Notes under the pieces: generated by a model
Databases searched by the model: none
Told to the model about the DNA's origin: nothing
Seen by the model: only the letters and a program-made list of their open reading frames with translations
From: an uncultured Chloroflexota bacterium
GTDB taxonomy: Bacteria; Chloroflexota; UBA11872
Assembly: GCA_958296175.1 (NCBI GenBank)
Contig: OY282448.1
Location: 2,728,127 to 2,792,126, forward strand
DNA: 64,000 nucleotides
Reading direction: 5' to 3'
Shown here: positions 10,178-51,166 of the stretch, one piece after another
Layout of the letters: each line of letters begins with the position of its first letter
Numbering within the stretch: the stretch's first letter is position 1
Program-made: the position numbers and the translations under genes

Positions 10178-10997
10178 GGACGAGGTCCAGGTCGATGATT
10201 TTGGTGGACGCGGCGGGTTTGGCGGTGGGGGCGGCGCTGGGGTCTGGCGGGGCGTCGGGGCGAAGAGGGTCGGGGGAACCGTTGGAAGGGACGTTGCGGA
10301 GGCGGCGCAGAAGGGCCAGGCCTTTGCGGGTGTCGCTGGCGATGCGCGGCTGGACCTGCGTGCGCAGCCGCAGGCGGAAGCGCCAGTAGGTGAAGTCTTT
10401 CCACACGTCCCAGCGCACGCGGGCGGGCGGGCGCATGCCGCGCTCGGCCAGGTAAGCGGCCCAGAGGTCGGCAAGGGAATACCCGTAAACGGCGCGGTAG
10501 GCGCTGCCGCGGGCGCGGTCCAGCACGTGGGCCTTGGCCTGTTCCAGCTCGACGGCGTGCAGCAGCGCCTCTTCGACGTCGACGCCGTAAAAGTGGTTCA
10601 GATAGGCCTTGTGGCGGGCGGGGCCCAGGGCGCGTGCAAAGGCGGCGGCGGGCACGCGCAGGGGTGGGCGCCCCTGAAAGCGCAGAGCGTTGCGCTCGCG
10701 GCGCGGGGCGGCGTCGGGGCGGGCGGCGGCCAGGCGGTCGAGCAGCAGGATCAGGTCGAGCGCCTGGCCGGCCACGAGGTAGGTGCGCCGGCGGCCGTGG
10801 CGCACTTCGGAGGCCAGGCGCCACTGTCCGGCGGCGAGGAGGGCGGCGAGGTACCAGTGGCGGCCGGCGGCCAGCTCGTCGTCGAAGCGGCGGAACGGGT
10901 CCGCGGGCGGCTGGGGCGGGTCGGCGGGGGGGGTGGACGGCTGGGGCGCGCGGGGGTGGGACAGGCGGGATCTTTCGGTGGGGGCGCGCACGTTCAT
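10173..10997 (-). CDS. Hypothetical protein, 274 aa, low-complexity ends
   Basis: Unrecognised. The first 40 residues are proline-rich (PQPSTPPADPPQPPADP) and the last 45 are also Pro/Ala-rich. Between them lies a well-composed helical domain, including YLAALLAAGQWRLASEV, HKAYLNHFYGVDVEEALL and AVYGYSLADLWAAYLAERG, with no membrane segments. It ends in IDLDLVL, an acidic/hydrophobic tail that could be a docking peptide. The 3' end runs into the dispersed repeat. Monocistronic, facing the RNase H gene across a repeat array. Confidence 0.6.
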   Translation of the reverse strand: MNVRAPTERSRLSHPRAPQPSTPPADPPQPPADPFRRFDDELAAGRHWYLAALLAAGQWRLASEVRHGRRRTYLVAGQALDLILLLDRLAAARPDAAPRRERNALRFQGRPPLRVPAAAFARALGPARHKAYLNHFYGVDVEEALLHAVELEQAKAHVLDRARGSAYRAVYGYSLADLWAAYLAERGMRPPARVRWDVWKDFTYWRFRLRLRTQVQPRIASDTRKGLALLRRLRNVPSNGSPDPLRPDAPPDPSAAPTAKPAASTKIIDLDLVL

Positions 10998-11046
10998 ACT
11001 ATGGTGCGCAGTGTTGGCGGCGGGGCGCTTTGCCTAGCTTTCTCCC

Positions 11047-11222
11047 CTCACCCTGCCCTCTCCCCGCTGGGGAGAGGGTAAGACGATGCGCCCGCTCCAG
11101 CTGGGGTGAGGGGATGACGGCGCGCCTGCTCCCGGCTGGGGCGAGGGTAGGACGATCTGCCCGCTCCCGGCTGGGGCGAGGATAGGACGATATGCCCGCT
11201 CGCCGCGGGGGCGAGGGGATGA
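11047..11222. repeat. CTCACCCT-headed tandem array, 34-35 bp units
   Basis: A head reading CTCACCCTGCCCTCTCCC with a short palindrome (CCCCGCTGGGG) is followed by units starting GAGG(G/A)(T/G)A at 11074, 11108, 11143, 11178 and 11213 (periods 34, 35, 35, 35). Each unit carries GCCCGCTC..GCTGGGG. It fills the gap between divergently placed genes and includes DNA just upstream of the RNase H gene. Confidence 0.75.
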
Positions 11223-11262
11223 GGACTCGGGAACGGCTGAGGCGGATGGGAGGAGTTGGGCG

Positions 11263-11688
11263 TTGCGGTATTTCGTGCATTGCGACGGGGCATGCCGGGG
11301 GAATCCGGGGCCGGCGGCGGCCGGGGTGGTGGTCTACGACGCGGACGGGGGAGTGGCGGGACGGGTTGCCGTGCGCCTGGGCGTGATGACCAACAACCAG
11401 GCGGAATACCACGCCGTGCTGGCGGGGATGCGGCTGGTGGAGCAGCTGGCGCCGAGCGCGGTGGAGTTTCGGCTGGACAGCCAGCTGACGGTGCGCCAGC
11501 TGAGCGGTGCGTGGAAGATCAAGCACGAGCGGCTGAGGGCGCTGGCGGCGCAGGTGCACGCGGCCGCGCCGGAGGGGGTGCCGGTGCGCTTCACGCACGT
11601 GCCGCGCGGACGGAACGCGGCGTCCGACCGGCTGGCCAACTGGGCGCTGGATCACGCCGCGCCCTCCGAGGGCGATCTCCCGCTGTAG
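11263..11688 (+). CDS. Ribonuclease H-like protein (RNase HI type)
   Basis: A 141-residue single-domain RNase H fold that should cut RNA in RNA-DNA hybrids. The acidic catalytic set is visible: Asp in FVHCDGACRGNPGPAAAG, Glu in NNQAEYHAVLAGM, Asp in RLDSQLTVRQLSG, and a final Asp in RGRNAASDRLAN. The form resembles the short RNase HI class fused elsewhere to CobC-like domains, here stand-alone. The start is TTG at 11263 with AGGAG 8 nt upstream, the best ribosome site locally. It lies 500 bp before mraZ, is cotranscribed in direction but separated by its own gap, and follows a tandem repeat array. Confidence 0.88.
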   Translation: MRYFVHCDGACRGNPGPAAAGVVVYDADGGVAGRVAVRLGVMTNNQAEYHAVLAGMRLVEQLAPSAVEFRLDSQLTVRQLSGAWKIKHERLRALAAQVHAAAPEGVPVRFTHVPRGRNAASDRLANWALDHAAPSEGDLPL

Positions 11689-12033
11689 GTCTCGGCTCGG
11701 GCGGCCCCGCCGGCGAGCCTTGGACGCGGGCGCGCCGGACCGGCGCACTATATACATGCGTGCGCCGCAAGCGGCGGACGCGGTTCGGCCTGGTGACGTC
11801 ACGCCGACGATGCGTCCCACCTTCGCCGCGGGCGGCGGGCGGGGGGAACCCTCGCAGTCAGCGGGCCGCGCCGTGGAATCGAGGCAGCCGGCAGCGGGCG
11901 CGGCGCCGTGCGCAAACCTGAAAATCGCGCCTGCGGCCGCGGCCGAGCCGCCGCGCGTGCGGCCCAGGGCGGCGCGGGCGCGCGCTGGAGGCCGCCGGCG
12001 GCGGCGGTGGTCAGGCGTCTGGATGCGGCCTCC

Positions 12034-12053
12034 AAAAAATCTTCCGACTTTTT
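12034..12053. promoter_or_regulatory. AT-rich inverted repeat containing the 12-mer shared with ftsZ
   Basis: AAAAATCTTCCGACTTTTT forms a near-perfect palindrome around TTCC. Its right part TTCCGACTTTTT (12042-12053) recurs exactly at 23004-23015 ahead of ftsZ. It lies 147 nt upstream of the mraZ ATG. A shared regulator site or a factor-independent stop for upstream transcription are both possible. Confidence 0.45.
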
Positions 12054-12129
12054 CCGTTTTTTCGCTGATTTCGTGTTGACACGCCGGTGGGGAGTATGGT
12101 TCACTTCTTGCGCTGAATCACCTCATCCG

Positions 12130-12154
12130 TGGTGGATAGTGGGTTGTCGTGGGG
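12130..12154 (+). promoter_or_regulatory. MraZ-box-like operator (three direct repeats, period 10)
   Basis: TGGTG at 12130, TGGGT at 12140 and TGGGG at 12150 are spaced by exactly 5 nt, in phase on one DNA face. This is the TGGGN-N5 arrangement known for MraZ operators in Escherichia coli and Mycoplasma. The last box ends 34 nt before the mraZ ATG. The inference is autorepression of the dcw operon by MraZ. Confidence 0.65.
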
Positions 12155-12188
12155 AGCGAAAGGGCCAACGTCGGCTTAGGCACGGACC

Positions 12189-12635
12189 ATGGCGAGCTTC
12201 AAAGGCACCTATGTTCACCAGCTGGACGCCAAGGGGCGTCTGGCCATTCCCAGTCGATTGCGGGCGCAGATGGAACAGGGCGGCACCTTGACCGTGGACG
12301 CCGAGGAGTGTCTGACGCTGTATCCCGCGGGGCGCTGGCAGGAGAGGGAACACGAGATCAGCACGCTGGACCCGTTCAACCCCGATGCGCGCGACATCAA
12401 GCGGCGCATCTTCGGGTCGGCGGAGGACGTGGCGTTCGACCGGCAAGGTCGAATCGCCATTGCCGCCCACCTGCGCGATCACGCGGGCTTGACCAAAGAA
12501 GTGGTCGTGATGGGTGTGGGTGACGTCATCGAATTATGGGACGCAGCGGCCTGGCAGGAGCGGCACGTTCGCATCGCCGCCGATGCGTCCAACATCATGC
12601 GGCGCGCCCGCGGAGGCGTTCCGCTCTCAACCTAG
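12189..12635 (+). CDS. mraZ: MraZ, transcriptional regulator of the dcw cluster
   Basis: A 148-residue protein with two AbrB-like half-domains. The first DxKGRxxxP motif is DAKGRLAIP (residues 13-21). The second is degenerate (FDRQGRIAIAAHLR, about residues 80-93) but correctly placed. MraZ rings bind TGGGN direct repeats upstream of their own gene, and such repeats lie at 12130-12154. It heads the cluster, as in most bacteria. A 54-bp spacer containing a strong hairpin separates it from rsmH, so its expression may be uncoupled from the downstream genes. Confidence 0.96.
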   Translation: MASFKGTYVHQLDAKGRLAIPSRLRAQMEQGGTLTVDAEECLTLYPAGRWQEREHEISTLDPFNPDARDIKRRIFGSAEDVAFDRQGRIAIAAHLRDHAGLTKEVVVMGVGDVIELWDAAAWQERHVRIAADASNIMRRARGGVPLST

Positions 12636-12642
12636 GGTGTTC

Positions 12643-12678
12643 TGTGTGGGACGCGGTGCCTCCCCCGCGTCCCACACA
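12643..12678 (+). promoter_or_regulatory. Perfect 14-bp stem-loop between mraZ and rsmH
   Basis: TGTGTGGGACGCGG (12643-12656) is the exact reverse complement of CCGCGTCCCACACA (12665-12678), with an 8-nt loop TGCCTCCC. No U-run follows, so it is not a standard intrinsic terminator. It ends 11 nt before the rsmH ATG, occupies the place of the ribosome site, and no other Shine-Dalgarno sequence is visible. It could gate translation or act as an mRNA processing or protection site. Confidence 0.7.
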
Positions 12679-12689
12679 CACCGATTCCC

Positions 12690-13826
12690 ATGCGCGCCGC
12701 AACGGCCCACCATCAGCCAGTGCTCGCGGCGGCCGTGGTGGAGCTGCTGCGCCCCTGTCTGGACGGGCTGATCGTGGACGGGACGGCGGGGCTGGGCGGA
12801 CACACGACGGCGCTGCTGACCGCCGGCGCGCAGCGGATGCTGGCGCTGGATCTGGACCCGGAGGCCGCGCGGCTGCTGAGCGAGCGCATGCGCGCCGAGG
12901 CGCGCGTGCGGGTGCTGCACGCAAGCTTTGCCGACCTGGGCGCGCACGTGCCGGCGGGCGGCGCGGCGGGGGTGGTGCTGGACCTGGGGGTCTCCTCGCT
13001 GCAACTGGACACGGCGGCGCGCGGGTTTTCGTTTCGCCTGGACGGGCCGATTGACATGCGGTTCGACCCGACGAGCGGCGCGCCGGCCGCGCAGATCGTG
13101 AACCGCATGCCGGAGCCCGAGCTGGCGGCGCTGTTGCGGACGCTGGGCGAGGAGCGGCGGGCGCGGGCGGTGGCGCGGCGCATTGCGGCGGCGCGGCCGC
13201 TGCATTCCACGGCGGCGCTGGCGCGGGTGGTGGCGGGCGCGTTTGCGGGGCGCCAGCGGCGGCACCCGGCCACGCGCACGTTTCAAGCGCTGCGCATGGC
13301 CGCGAACGCGGAACTGGAGACGCTGCGGCAGGGCTTGGACGCGGCGCGCTTGGCGCTGCGCGGGGGCGGGCGGCTGGCGGCGATTGCGTTTCACAGCCTG
13401 GAAGACCGCGAGGTGAAGCAGACGTTCAACGCCTGGGCGGGCGCGGGGTTGGGCCGCGTGGTGACGCGGCGGCCGATTCGGCCGGAGCGCGCGGAAACGC
13501 AGTCGAACCCACGGGCGCGCAGCGCGCGGCTGCGGGGGTTCGAGGTGGATTCGGGCGTCGACCCTCACCCTAACCATCTCCCTCGAAGGGAGTGGGGACC
13601 GGAAGAGCCGAGCGGCTGGGATGCCTCCCACGCGCCCGACCATCTCCCTCGGAGGGAGCGGGGACCGGAAGAGCCGACCGGCTGGGATGCCTCCCACGCG
13701 CCCGACCATCTCCCTCGGAGGGAGCGGGGATCACAAGAGCCGAGGGGGTCGAGGGGACCAAGTGAGCTGCGGGGATCGAATGGATCGAGGGAATCGAGGG
13801 GGCCGCGTGGACCGGGGGAGTCGTGA
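12690..13826 (+). CDS. rsmH: 16S rRNA (cytosine(1402)-N4)-methyltransferase RsmH with repeat-derived tail
   Basis: Methylates N4 of C1402 in 16S rRNA using SAM. The core (about residues 1-290) is complete: HQPVLAAAVVELL, the SAM loop DGTAGLGGHTTALL, LALDLDPEA, VVLDLGVSSLQLD, GFSFRLDGPIDMRFD, TFQALRMAANAELE and AIAFHSLEDREVK. About 90 further residues follow, containing three copies of a 22-residue unit (HLPRRERGPEEPTGWDASHA-like) encoded by three 66-bp direct repeats, then Arg/Gly/Ser-rich sequence. That tail is not part of the family and stems from an intergenic-type repeat. It ends in TGATG overlap with ftsL. Confidence 0.96.
   Translation: MRAATAHHQPVLAAAVVELLRPCLDGLIVDGTAGLGGHTTALLTAGAQRMLALDLDPEAARLLSERMRAEARVRVLHASFADLGAHVPAGGAAGVVLDLGVSSLQLDTAARGFSFRLDGPIDMRFDPTSGAPAAQIVNRMPEPELAALLRTLGEERRARAVARRIAAARPLHSTAALARVVAGAFAGRQRRHPATRTFQALRMAANAELETLRQGLDAARLALRGGGRLAAIAFHSLEDREVKQTFNAWAGAGLGRVVTRRPIRPERAETQSNPRARSARLRGFEVDSGVDPHPNHLPRREWGPEEPSGWDASHAPDHLPRRERGPEEPTGWDASHAPDHLPRRERGSQEPRGSRGPSELRGSNGSRESRGPRGPGES
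13563..13740. repeat. CTCACCCT-headed 66-bp tandem repeats inside rsmH
   Basis: The head CTCACCCTAACCATCTCCC is followed by CATCTCCCTC blocks at 13575, 13641 and 13707, exactly 66 bp (22 codons) apart. Each unit includes an inverted repeat (CTCCCTCGGAGGGAG type) and GACCGGAAGAGCCGA. The third unit degenerates near 13740. The period is a multiple of three, so the frame of rsmH is preserved. Confidence 0.85.
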
Positions 13827-14293
13827 TGGCGCTGCGGCAGGTTCCGATGGTGTTGCGGCGGGCGCCGTGGCATTCGGAGGCGTTGCGCTGGGTGCCGGCG
13901 GCGGCGCCGGCCTCGCGGATCGTGCTGGCGGTGATCGTGGCGGCGTTCGTGATCTCCATGGTGTGGATTCAGCAAACGCAGACGCTGGTGCGGCTGGGGG
14001 GCGAGATTCAGCGGCTGGAGATCGAGCTGGAGCGGGTGGAGCTGGAGCGGCAGAGCATTCTGGCGGAGCTGGCGCTGCTGAACGACCTGACCACCGCGCA
14101 GCGTCTGGCCTACACCCAGCTGGAAATGCGCCTGCCGCGGCGGCCCGTGTTCACGCGGGCGCAGCCGCTGCCGCCCGGCGTGTCGTTCGACCTGCCGCTG
14201 TGGGCGGCGCCCACGCAACCGTTGCGCGAACCTCCCTGGTGGGAAGAGCTGGCCCGTGAAGTCAGTACGCGGATTACTCGGCTCGCGGAATAA
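13826..14293 (+). CDS. ftsL: FtsL/DivIC-like septal protein
   Basis: A 155-residue bitopic protein in the ftsL position. A basic cytoplasmic tail is followed by one membrane helix (IVLAVIVAAFVISMVWI, about residues 33-49) and a heptad-rich coiled coil (LVRLGGEIQRLEIELERVEL... to about 95), then a proline-rich tail. Such proteins join FtsQ/DivIB at the septum and activate FtsW-FtsI. Sequence conservation in this family is low, so the assignment rests on topology and position. The ATG at 13826 overlaps the rsmH stop (TGATG), and the 3' end overlaps the ftsI start by 38 nt. Confidence 0.82.
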   Translation: MALRQVPMVLRRAPWHSEALRWVPAAAPASRIVLAVIVAAFVISMVWIQQTQTLVRLGGEIQRLEIELERVELERQSILAELALLNDLTTAQRLAYTQLEMRLPRRPVFTRAQPLPPGVSFDLPLWAAPTQPLREPPWWEELAREVSTRITRLAE

Positions 14294-16076
14294 GCGCGCC
14301 GCGGACGTGGACGCCGGCGAGCCGCCGGACCCGTCGCGGCGTCTGATTCTGATGCTGCTGGGCGGGGTGGGCGCGGCGGGCGCGCTGGGCTGGCGGCTGT
14401 TCGACTGGCACGTGAACCAGGCAGCGGCGCTGGCCGCGCGCGGGTCGAGCGCGCTGCTGACGCGCAGCGAGATCAACCCGCGGCGCGGGAACATCGTGGA
14501 CCGCAGCGGCGACGTGCTGGCAATCAGCCGCAGCGCGGTGCGCGTGGTGGCCGACCCGTCGGAGCTGCACCACGACGCGGACCCGTTCGAGGTGGCCGAC
14601 CGGCTGGCGGAGCTGTTGGGCGTGGACGCGGCGGTCATCGCCGAACGGCTGGGCAACCCGACCTCGCGCTACGCGGAAATCCAGCGCGAGGTGATCGGCG
14701 AACCGGCGGACGCCGTGGCCGCGGCGATCGAGGACGGCCAGCTGCCCGGCGTGCGGCTCGACCCGGACCGCATGCGCACGTATCCCAACCGCGAACTGGC
14801 CGCGCACGTGCTGGGGTTCGTGGGCGAGAACACGTCGCGGCCGGGCGACGTGGTGGGCCAGGCCGGCATCGAGGCGTGGTACGACGACATTCTGGGCGGG
14901 CAGCCGGGGATCGTGAGTTCCGACATCGACCGGCTGGGGCGCCGCATTCCCATCGGGCGGTATGCGCACCAGCCGCCGCAGCACGGCTCGCACGTGACGC
15001 TGACGATCGACCGAACGATTCAGCACATTGCCGAGCAGGAACTGGACGCGGCCATCGACGAGTTCAGCGCCGCGTCGGGCACGATCTTGATCACCAATCC
15101 CAAGACCGGCGAGGTGCTGGGGCTGGCGAACCGCCCGGCCTACGACCCGGGGCGCATGCACGAGTACCGCACGTTTGGCCCCGAATTTTCCAACCGCGCC
15201 AGCGGGCTGATCTTCGAGCCGGGCAGCACCTTCAAGCTGATCACGATGGCGGCGGGGCTGGACACGGGCGCGGTGCGGCCGGAGACCACGCACGATCTGC
15301 CGGGGATCATGACCTACTACGGGCAGGAGTTCAAGAACTGGGACGAGCGCACCCATCCGGAGCAGACCATGGTGAGCGTGTTGCAGCACTCCAGCAACAC
15401 GGGGGCGATCTTCGTGGCCGACACCATCGGGGCGGACCGGTTCTACAGCTACCTGGACGCCTTCGGGTTCGGGTCGCGCACGGGCATCGATCTGGCCGGC
15501 GAGGTGTCTGGCATCGTGCGCCGCCGCGGGGATCCGATGTGGTTTCTGCCCGACCTGGCGGCCAACTCGTTTGGCCAGGGCATCTCCGTCACGCCGGTGC
15601 AGCTGGCAACGGCGGTTGGGGCGATTGCCAACGACGGGGTGATGATGCGGCCGCGCGTGGCGCGGGCGGTGACGCACCCCGACGGCCGCCACGAAACGAT
15701 CGAGCCGCAGTCCATCCGGCGGGTGCTTTCGACCGAGACGGCCCGCACGCTGGTGCAGATGATGGAAGCGGCGGAGTCAGCCGTGACGGGCAACCTGGCC
15801 CGCATTCCGGGCTACCGAACGGCTGGCAAGACGGGCACCGCCGAGATTCCCTCCGGCGGGAAACTGCTGGAAGACACGGCCATCGCGTCGTACGTCGGCT
15901 TTGGCCCGATCGAGCATCCGCACGTGCTGGTGCTGGTCATCATCGAGCGGCCGCAGACGGCGTTCTTTGGCGCGCAGGTGGCTTCGCCGACCTACGCGCG
16001 GGTGATGAGCCGCGTGGCGACGTACATGAAAATCCCACCGCGCGAGCGGCGGGATCTGAACGCGGCGCGCACGTGA
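14256..16076 (+). CDS. ftsI: Penicillin-binding protein 2/3, septal transpeptidase (FtsI class)
   Basis: A class B PBP of 606 residues that cross-links septal peptidoglycan. It has one N-terminal membrane anchor (LILMLLGGVGAAGALGW), then the dimerisation region with PRRGNIVDRSGDVLAIS. The transpeptidase domain carries all three active-site motifs: STFK (Ser324, Lys327), SSN (379-381) and KTG (525-527). No PASTA domain follows, unlike many Gram-positive homologues. The GTG at 14256 is chosen because it keeps the charged cytoplasmic tail; it lies inside ftsL. The stop overlaps the ftsW GTG as GTGA within a duplicated 24-bp sequence. Confidence 0.95.
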   Translation: MKSVRGLLGSRNKRAADVDAGEPPDPSRRLILMLLGGVGAAGALGWRLFDWHVNQAAALAARGSSALLTRSEINPRRGNIVDRSGDVLAISRSAVRVVADPSELHHDADPFEVADRLAELLGVDAAVIAERLGNPTSRYAEIQREVIGEPADAVAAAIEDGQLPGVRLDPDRMRTYPNRELAAHVLGFVGENTSRPGDVVGQAGIEAWYDDILGGQPGIVSSDIDRLGRRIPIGRYAHQPPQHGSHVTLTIDRTIQHIAEQELDAAIDEFSAASGTILITNPKTGEVLGLANRPAYDPGRMHEYRTFGPEFSNRASGLIFEPGSTFKLITMAAGLDTGAVRPETTHDLPGIMTYYGQEFKNWDERTHPEQTMVSVLQHSSNTGAIFVADTIGADRFYSYLDAFGFGSRTGIDLAGEVSGIVRRRGDPMWFLPDLAANSFGQGISVTPVQLATAVGAIANDGVMMRPRVARAVTHPDGRHETIEPQSIRRVLSTETARTLVQMMEAAESAVTGNLARIPGYRTAGKTGTAEIPSGGKLLEDTAIASYVGFGPIEHPHVLVLVIIERPQTAFFGAQVASPTYARVMSRVATYMKIPPRERRDLNAART

Positions 16077-36080: not shown

Positions 36081-36254
36081 CTCACCCTCACCCTGCCCTC
36101 TCCCTGAGGGAGAGGGGAAGAGTCTGTTCGCTCCCTGAGGGAGAAGGGAAGAATCTGTGCTCTCCCTGGGGGAGAGGGGAAGAATCTGTTCGCTCCCTGA
36201 AGGGGAGTGGAAGAACCTGTGCTTTCCCTGGGCAGGAACGTCTCCGGACCAACC
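36081..36254. repeat. CTCACCCT-headed tandem array, five 31-bp units
   Basis: After the head CTCACCCTCACCCTGCCC, units containing (C/T)TCCCTG..GGGAG begin at 36100, 36131, 36162, 36193 and 36224, exactly 31 bp apart. Each unit can fold CTCCCTGAGGGAG and ends GGAAGARTCTGT(T/G). It lies in the convergent gap between trxA and dnaG and is the only notable content there. Confidence 0.85.
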
Positions 36255-50919: not shown

Positions 50920-51166
50920 TTTCCACGCGCGCGGCTGCCTTCGCCCACACAACACCGAGGGTCACCCCCCTCACCCTGCCCTCTCCCTCCAGGGAGAGGG
51001 GAAGAACTGCAGCCGATCTGGGGGTGGGCTGCGCGGCCCGCTCTCTCCAGGGCGCGGGGGGGGGAGCGGTTTGGGCCTGCAACCACGACTTCTACAAGGC
51101 CTGCAACCGCGGTCTGTGCAAGCGCCGGAATGTGTTCGAACGTCTGGGTCGGCGGTGGCAAGGACA

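Follow-up and report, generated by a model that had tools for sequence, protein, structure and literature searches.

The stretch of DNA analyzed here (the window, 64,000 nucleotides) corresponds to positions 2728127-2792126 of the single-contig genome, 3.0 Mb with an estimated completeness of 94%, of an uncultured Chloroflexota bacterium. The order RNase H-like gene, mraZ, rsmH, ftsL, and ftsI is common to the window and Chloroflexi bacterium UBA6622, the nearest named relative in our search. The rsmH product is predicted to be RsmH, the 16S rRNA m4C1402 methyltransferase: Pfam PF01795 matches residues 6-285 and TIGR00006 residues 5-285, the latter with 236 bits versus an equivalog cut-off of 154, and the invariant columns are kept. 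Past this core, the frame remains open up to residue 378. The features of the locus, all on the plus strand, are the following.

12690-13826, plus strand: rsmH, whole frame, 378 aa.
12690-13559, plus strand: ancestral part of rsmH, residues 1-290 (catalytic core and short native tail GFEVDSGV), delimited with PF01795, TIGR00006, and an alignment with 20 relatives.
13560-13823, plus strand: inserted 264 bp (88 codons), an in-frame C-terminal extension absent from all relatives.
13561-13592, plus strand: REP-like head ACCCTCACCCTAACC with first palindrome CTCCCTCGAAGGGAG, member of a genome-wide family.
13575-13640, plus strand: 66-bp unit 1, HLPRREWGPEEPSGWDASHAPD, found with TRF.
13641-13706, plus strand: 66-bp unit 2, HLPRRERGPEEPTGWDASHAPD, found with TRF and by unit-to-unit comparison.
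13707-13746, plus strand: partial unit 3, with about 40 of 66 bp matching, HLPRRERGSQEPR.
13747-13823, plus strand: unique G-rich segment of about 77 bp coding for GSRGPSELRGSNGSRESRGPRGPGES.
13824-13828, plus strand: TGATG, the rsmH stop overlapping the ftsL start, conserved with relatives and ancestral.
13826-14293, plus strand: ftsL-like gene, with a weak DivIC/FtsL match, in the dcw order mraZ-rsmH-ftsL-ftsI.

A sequence-only reading of the window had proposed an in-frame fusion between the 3' end of rsmH and a dispersed intergenic repeat, with the enzyme core ending near residue 290 and translation continuing to a stop that overlaps ftsL. The relatives and the genome-wide family described below support the fusion, the core indeed ends at about residue 285, and the frame runs to TGA at 13824-13826, whose last base starts the ATG of ftsL at 13826. 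The array itself is less regular than the three exact 66-bp units coding for three copies of a 22-residue block that had been described. The 66-bp period stands, as TRF detected it at 13573-13743 with 2.6 copies and 94% matches, but direct comparison revealed two full units followed by only part of a third. Units 1 and 2 are identical at 63 of 66 positions, the differences amounting to one silent and two amino acid changes; in unit 3, 35 of the first 40 bases agree before the sequence diverges. The head motif CTCACCCTAACC occurs exactly at 13564. The last 77 bp or so of the tail (13747-13823) are not repeat and match nothing else in the genome. The net insertion of 264 bp is exactly 4 x 66, although only some 2.6 units can be recognized.

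Comparison with relatives gave the state of the gene without the insert. In all 12 same-genus relatives, RsmH stops eight residues after a conserved RLR, and CTGATGGC follows, in which the TGA overlaps the ftsL ATG. The window RsmH also has eight residues at this place (GFEVDSGV), then the 88 extra ones, then the same TGATGGC. Excising 13560-13823 restores the relatives' rsmH-TGATG-ftsL junction, gap-free around the stop. As the relatives' RsmH proteins are only 58-69% identical to that of the window, it is tail length and the element boundary, not near-identical flanks, that fix the exact insertion point. The consensus start of the element, 13561, lies within 1 nt of the point derived from the alignment, so that both lines, which are independent, point to an insertion at the last codon boundary. 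Array-free rsmH genes thus end at the position matching 13559, as had been predicted, and a tail common to all relatives, the outcome named beforehand as incompatible with a fusion, is excluded by the tail-less ends in the genus. When 41 genomes of the class were scanned for an RsmH end followed by the head, the window genome alone was positive.

The proposal that the insertion replaced the original stop codon was not borne out. The CTGATGG overlap of rsmH and ftsL is present in 12/12 same-genus relatives and in 4/6 members of a sister genus. Since TGATG is common to the relatives, the ancestral stop is still in use, with the insertion placed immediately upstream of it. No convincing target-site duplication was found at the insert; GTCG is present at both ends, but a duplication of it implies an ancestor that is out of frame. 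Two apparent counterparts of the long RsmH were discarded. A tblastn match of the tail to UBA6622, reaching query residue 338, crosses stop codons, enters ftsL, and does not represent a homologous tail. A seemingly long RsmH in a relative (G007:C255:8247-8362) is split by a scaffold gap (Ns) with poor flanks, which mimics an in-frame insertion.

The element belongs to a dispersed family. A search with the head CCTCACCCTAACCCTCTCCC at up to three mismatches returned 120 genome-wide matches, versus 0 for the reversed control. The consensus from 110 aligned heads starts 2 nt before CCTCACCC, has a GGGAGAGGGG-type second arm, and measures about 46 nt; most copies have a CCTCTCCCT...GGGAGAGG stem. 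Gene context was mapped for 110 of the 120 matches, from sequence stretches around the repeats with genes called by a simple codon model trained on the window rather than taken from full annotation, and 98 of these 110 heads lie outside called genes, yet about 83% of the window is coding. Many copies, mostly intergenic, and a short palindromic unit are the marks of REP sequences. The conserved end is [A/C]CCCTCACCC (reverse complement GGGTGAGGG[G/T]); neither end carries the GTAG/CGTC tetranucleotide, and the REP-associated tyrosine transposase RAYT (PF01797) was found in 0/13 genomes of the genus, with control genomes positive. Because both the tag and RAYT are missing, we call the element REP-like and place it outside those superfamilies. 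Its distribution in the phylum is patchy, with a match in 64/251 genomes; it is frequent in this and certain other families. An Rfam search of 10900-14400 gave no match at E<=1, and a literature search yielded nothing relevant for the peptide PHPNPLP or for CCCTCACCC.

Within the window, 10 matches to the CTCACCCTAACC head at up to 2 mismatches were found versus 2.5 expected. The head had been said to be shared with noncoding arrays at 11047, 36081, and 50970. A REP-like head is present at all three places, in the variant form CTCACCCTGCCC and not as CTCACCCTAACC (located by head scan and gene calls, the two arrays also by TRF):

11047-11219, plus strand: intergenic array with variant head CTCACCCTGCCC.
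36081-36232, plus strand: intergenic array with variant head CTCACCCTGCCC.
50970-51001, plus strand: intergenic single REP-like element with variant head CTCACCCTGCCC.

The elements often open tandem arrays with locus-specific spacers. That the period is a multiple of three had been given as the reason why translation continues, and we considered whether coding drove the 66-bp period in rsmH. The same period is found in four other REP arrays, and among 48 arrays near heads the tandem period modulo 3 is 0 in 19, 1 in 16, and 2 in 13, which shows no bias. A multiple of three is thus not special to coding, and this argument was abandoned. The four other 66-bp arrays, at G000:C1 767125, 884237, 1657358, and 2841573, have different spacers. 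Within the rsmH insert, the +1 frame is also open, so that openness alone is weak evidence of coding, and the +2 frame meets the TAA of the head. What is constrained is the total length of the insert, which must be a multiple of three for the ancestral TGATG to be reached.

The same element enters other reading frames. The frame used in rsmH reads PHPNPLP, and a GNAT gene gains PPHPDPLPLAGGEGGR in that same frame, absent in relatives. In a helicase gene of the window genome (G000:C1:95436-96332), the element, read in the opposite-strand frame as SPSPLQGEGRGEG, forms an internal in-frame insert of some 52 residues that is missing from the homologues in three relatives (G006, G015, and G029). 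In HsdM-like genes of two relatives (G008:C33 and G004:C69) the element is likewise in frame, and both genes have it at one common site, between TYH(T/A)WR and Y(S/T)DIPGFCKSA. Genes entered in the +2 frame receive their stop from the TAA of the head and end in ...PSP: a lipid A acyltransferase-like gene, a histone deacetylase-like gene, and a paralogous surface-protein-like family. A rhodanese gene likewise takes its stop from a variant head, in this case TAG; the 11 homologues closest to it in relatives have ...PIER as their C-terminus. Among the cases found, rsmH has the longest C-terminal extension. In the surface-protein-like paralogues (...DLLYPAETWREFEVFAPAP), the element lies at the 3' end in six copies, near G000:C1 221287, 1376020, 1450773, 1852810, 2016915, and 2129431, most of which end on its TAA.

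These parallel cases bear on the reliability of the rsmH sequence. G-runs and tandem repeats are error-prone, and the genome is a single contig with an estimated completeness of 94%; an indel or a collapsed repeat might therefore hide an early stop, RsmH ending in or before the array. An artefact would be expected to arrive exactly at the ancestral TGATG only about one time in three, however, and fusions of the same kind exist in other genes. We give very little credence to a sequencing or assembly error and treat the fusion as genuine.

We then considered what the tail might do as a protein. It is rich in arginine and proline over its 88 in-frame codons, and the 66-bp period holds the peptide repeat in phase, as might be the case for a functional tail under selection that derives from a repeat by chance, for example a basic proline/arginine-rich rRNA-binding tail. 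Its codon use is not gene-like: the mean codon log-odds of -0.48 is the lowest of 55 gene ends, the other 54 all being at least 0.07, and GC3 is 0.69 versus 0.92 in the RsmH core. AlphaFold, run with an alignment of 21 RsmH sequences in which only the window RsmH covers the tail, returned a confident core and pLDDT below 50 for residues 294-378. The tail is thus predicted to be unstructured, a low pLDDT fitting disorder without proving it. Together with the occurrence of the tail in one species only and the two amino acid changes versus one silent change between units 1 and 2, these features make a selected function very unlikely. The array in rsmH is most likely a tolerated insertion, and the tail may be nearly neutral for the enzyme. 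Its predicted tryptic peptides include EWGPEEPSGWDASHAPDHLPR and GPEEPTGWDASHAPDHLPR.

A role at the level of nucleic acid was also weighed. The array places three palindromes within 250 nt of the ftsL start, and REPs located at most 15 nt from stop codons lower translation in E. coli, according to earlier work as cited in PMC12306157; the array might thus work at the rsmH-ftsL boundary mainly as RNA or DNA, with hairpins tuning ftsL translation or mRNA decay and with translation being incidental. Shuffled sequences nevertheless fold at least as well as the array RNA (z = +1.9). The palindromes are separated from the stop by about 100 nt or more, which puts them in translated sequence and outside the zone of such REP effects, and no relative keeps the array. 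There is in our view only a slim chance that it acts mainly in this way.

A tolerated insertion accounts for these observations as follows. A REP-like palindromic element, present in about 120 copies in the genome, would have inserted directly after the last codon of rsmH, ahead of the stop, and then grown locally by tandem duplication into an array of 66-bp period. The net 264 bp are divisible by three, and the element is free of stops in the rsmH frame (PHPN-LP), so that ribosomes should read through to the original TGATG. RsmH would thereby gain an unstructured 88-residue tail, which is probably translated, and within the division operon rsmH and ftsL would keep their translational overlap. 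We regard this account, from insertion before the stop through local growth to read-through as a tail, as very probable.

The position of the array between two overlapping genes may help to explain why this copy is found in its frame. At the 108 sites with both neighbors available, the element-bearing gene overlaps the next gene only at rsmH and at the helicase gene. All genes that end on the head's own stop are followed by a long gap or by an opposite-facing gene. Frames that break the rsmH-ftsL overlap would presumably have been selected against, and selection for coupling is a plausible reason for the survival of this copy in its frame. The stronger proposal, that rsmH-ftsL translational coupling kept the array in the TGATG-reaching frame and that growth by 66 bp was filtered to preserve it, is unlikely in our judgment. 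If true, it would mean that the division operon accepts a palindromic repeat solely in the frame that carries ribosomes to the old TGATG.

In-frame palindromic repeats are known from other bacteria. In Proteobacteria including Rickettsia, intragenic REPs lie in frame or supply stops, and clusters of them code for 43-82 residues (PMC3733652). The element described here resembles these GTAG/CGTC-tagged REPs as a short, high-copy palindrome that is mostly intergenic and sometimes in frame or stop-giving. It differs in its conserved end, [A/C]CCCTCACCCTAACC rather than GTAG or CGTC, in the lack of RAYT in the genus, in the position of the stop inside the head (TAA, or TAG in the variant), and in the 88 codons added to rsmH. 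Rickettsia palindromic elements (RPE; Ogata et al. 2000) likewise lie in frame in conserved genes and are tolerated, one RPE-bearing enzyme being active in the accounts summarized in PMC2229807 and PMC10969869. Location in frame in conserved genes with absence from the relatives' orthologues, as for RPE, was found for rsmH, the helicase, and GNAT. We do not claim RPE membership, since the descriptions of RPE set them apart by host and unit length: about 100-150 bp (105-146 bp) in Rickettsia versus, in this Chloroflexota genus, units of about 46 nt that expand into tandem arrays. ERIC, Correia/NEMIS, and other bacterial MITE are small non-autonomous elements with open frames that fuse to host genes (PMC2229807), as seen here, but they have terminal inverted repeats and target-site duplications, of which no convincing example was found at rsmH.

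The phenomenon is of a known kind; judged from the literature consulted, what is new is the host group, the site, and how many parallel cases there are. Documented best in Rickettsia and some Proteobacteria, in-frame palindromic repeats are here extended to a genus of Chloroflexota. The states before and after insertion can be clearly told apart at a conserved housekeeping gene, and one genome has several parallel cases, comprising C-terminal tails, an internal insert, and donated stops. Annotators should be aware that C-termini or inserts of the PHPNPLP, SPSPLQGEGRGEG, or PSP type in this genus are repeat-derived. The rsmH case offers a testable example of an insertion surviving between two overlapping operon genes.
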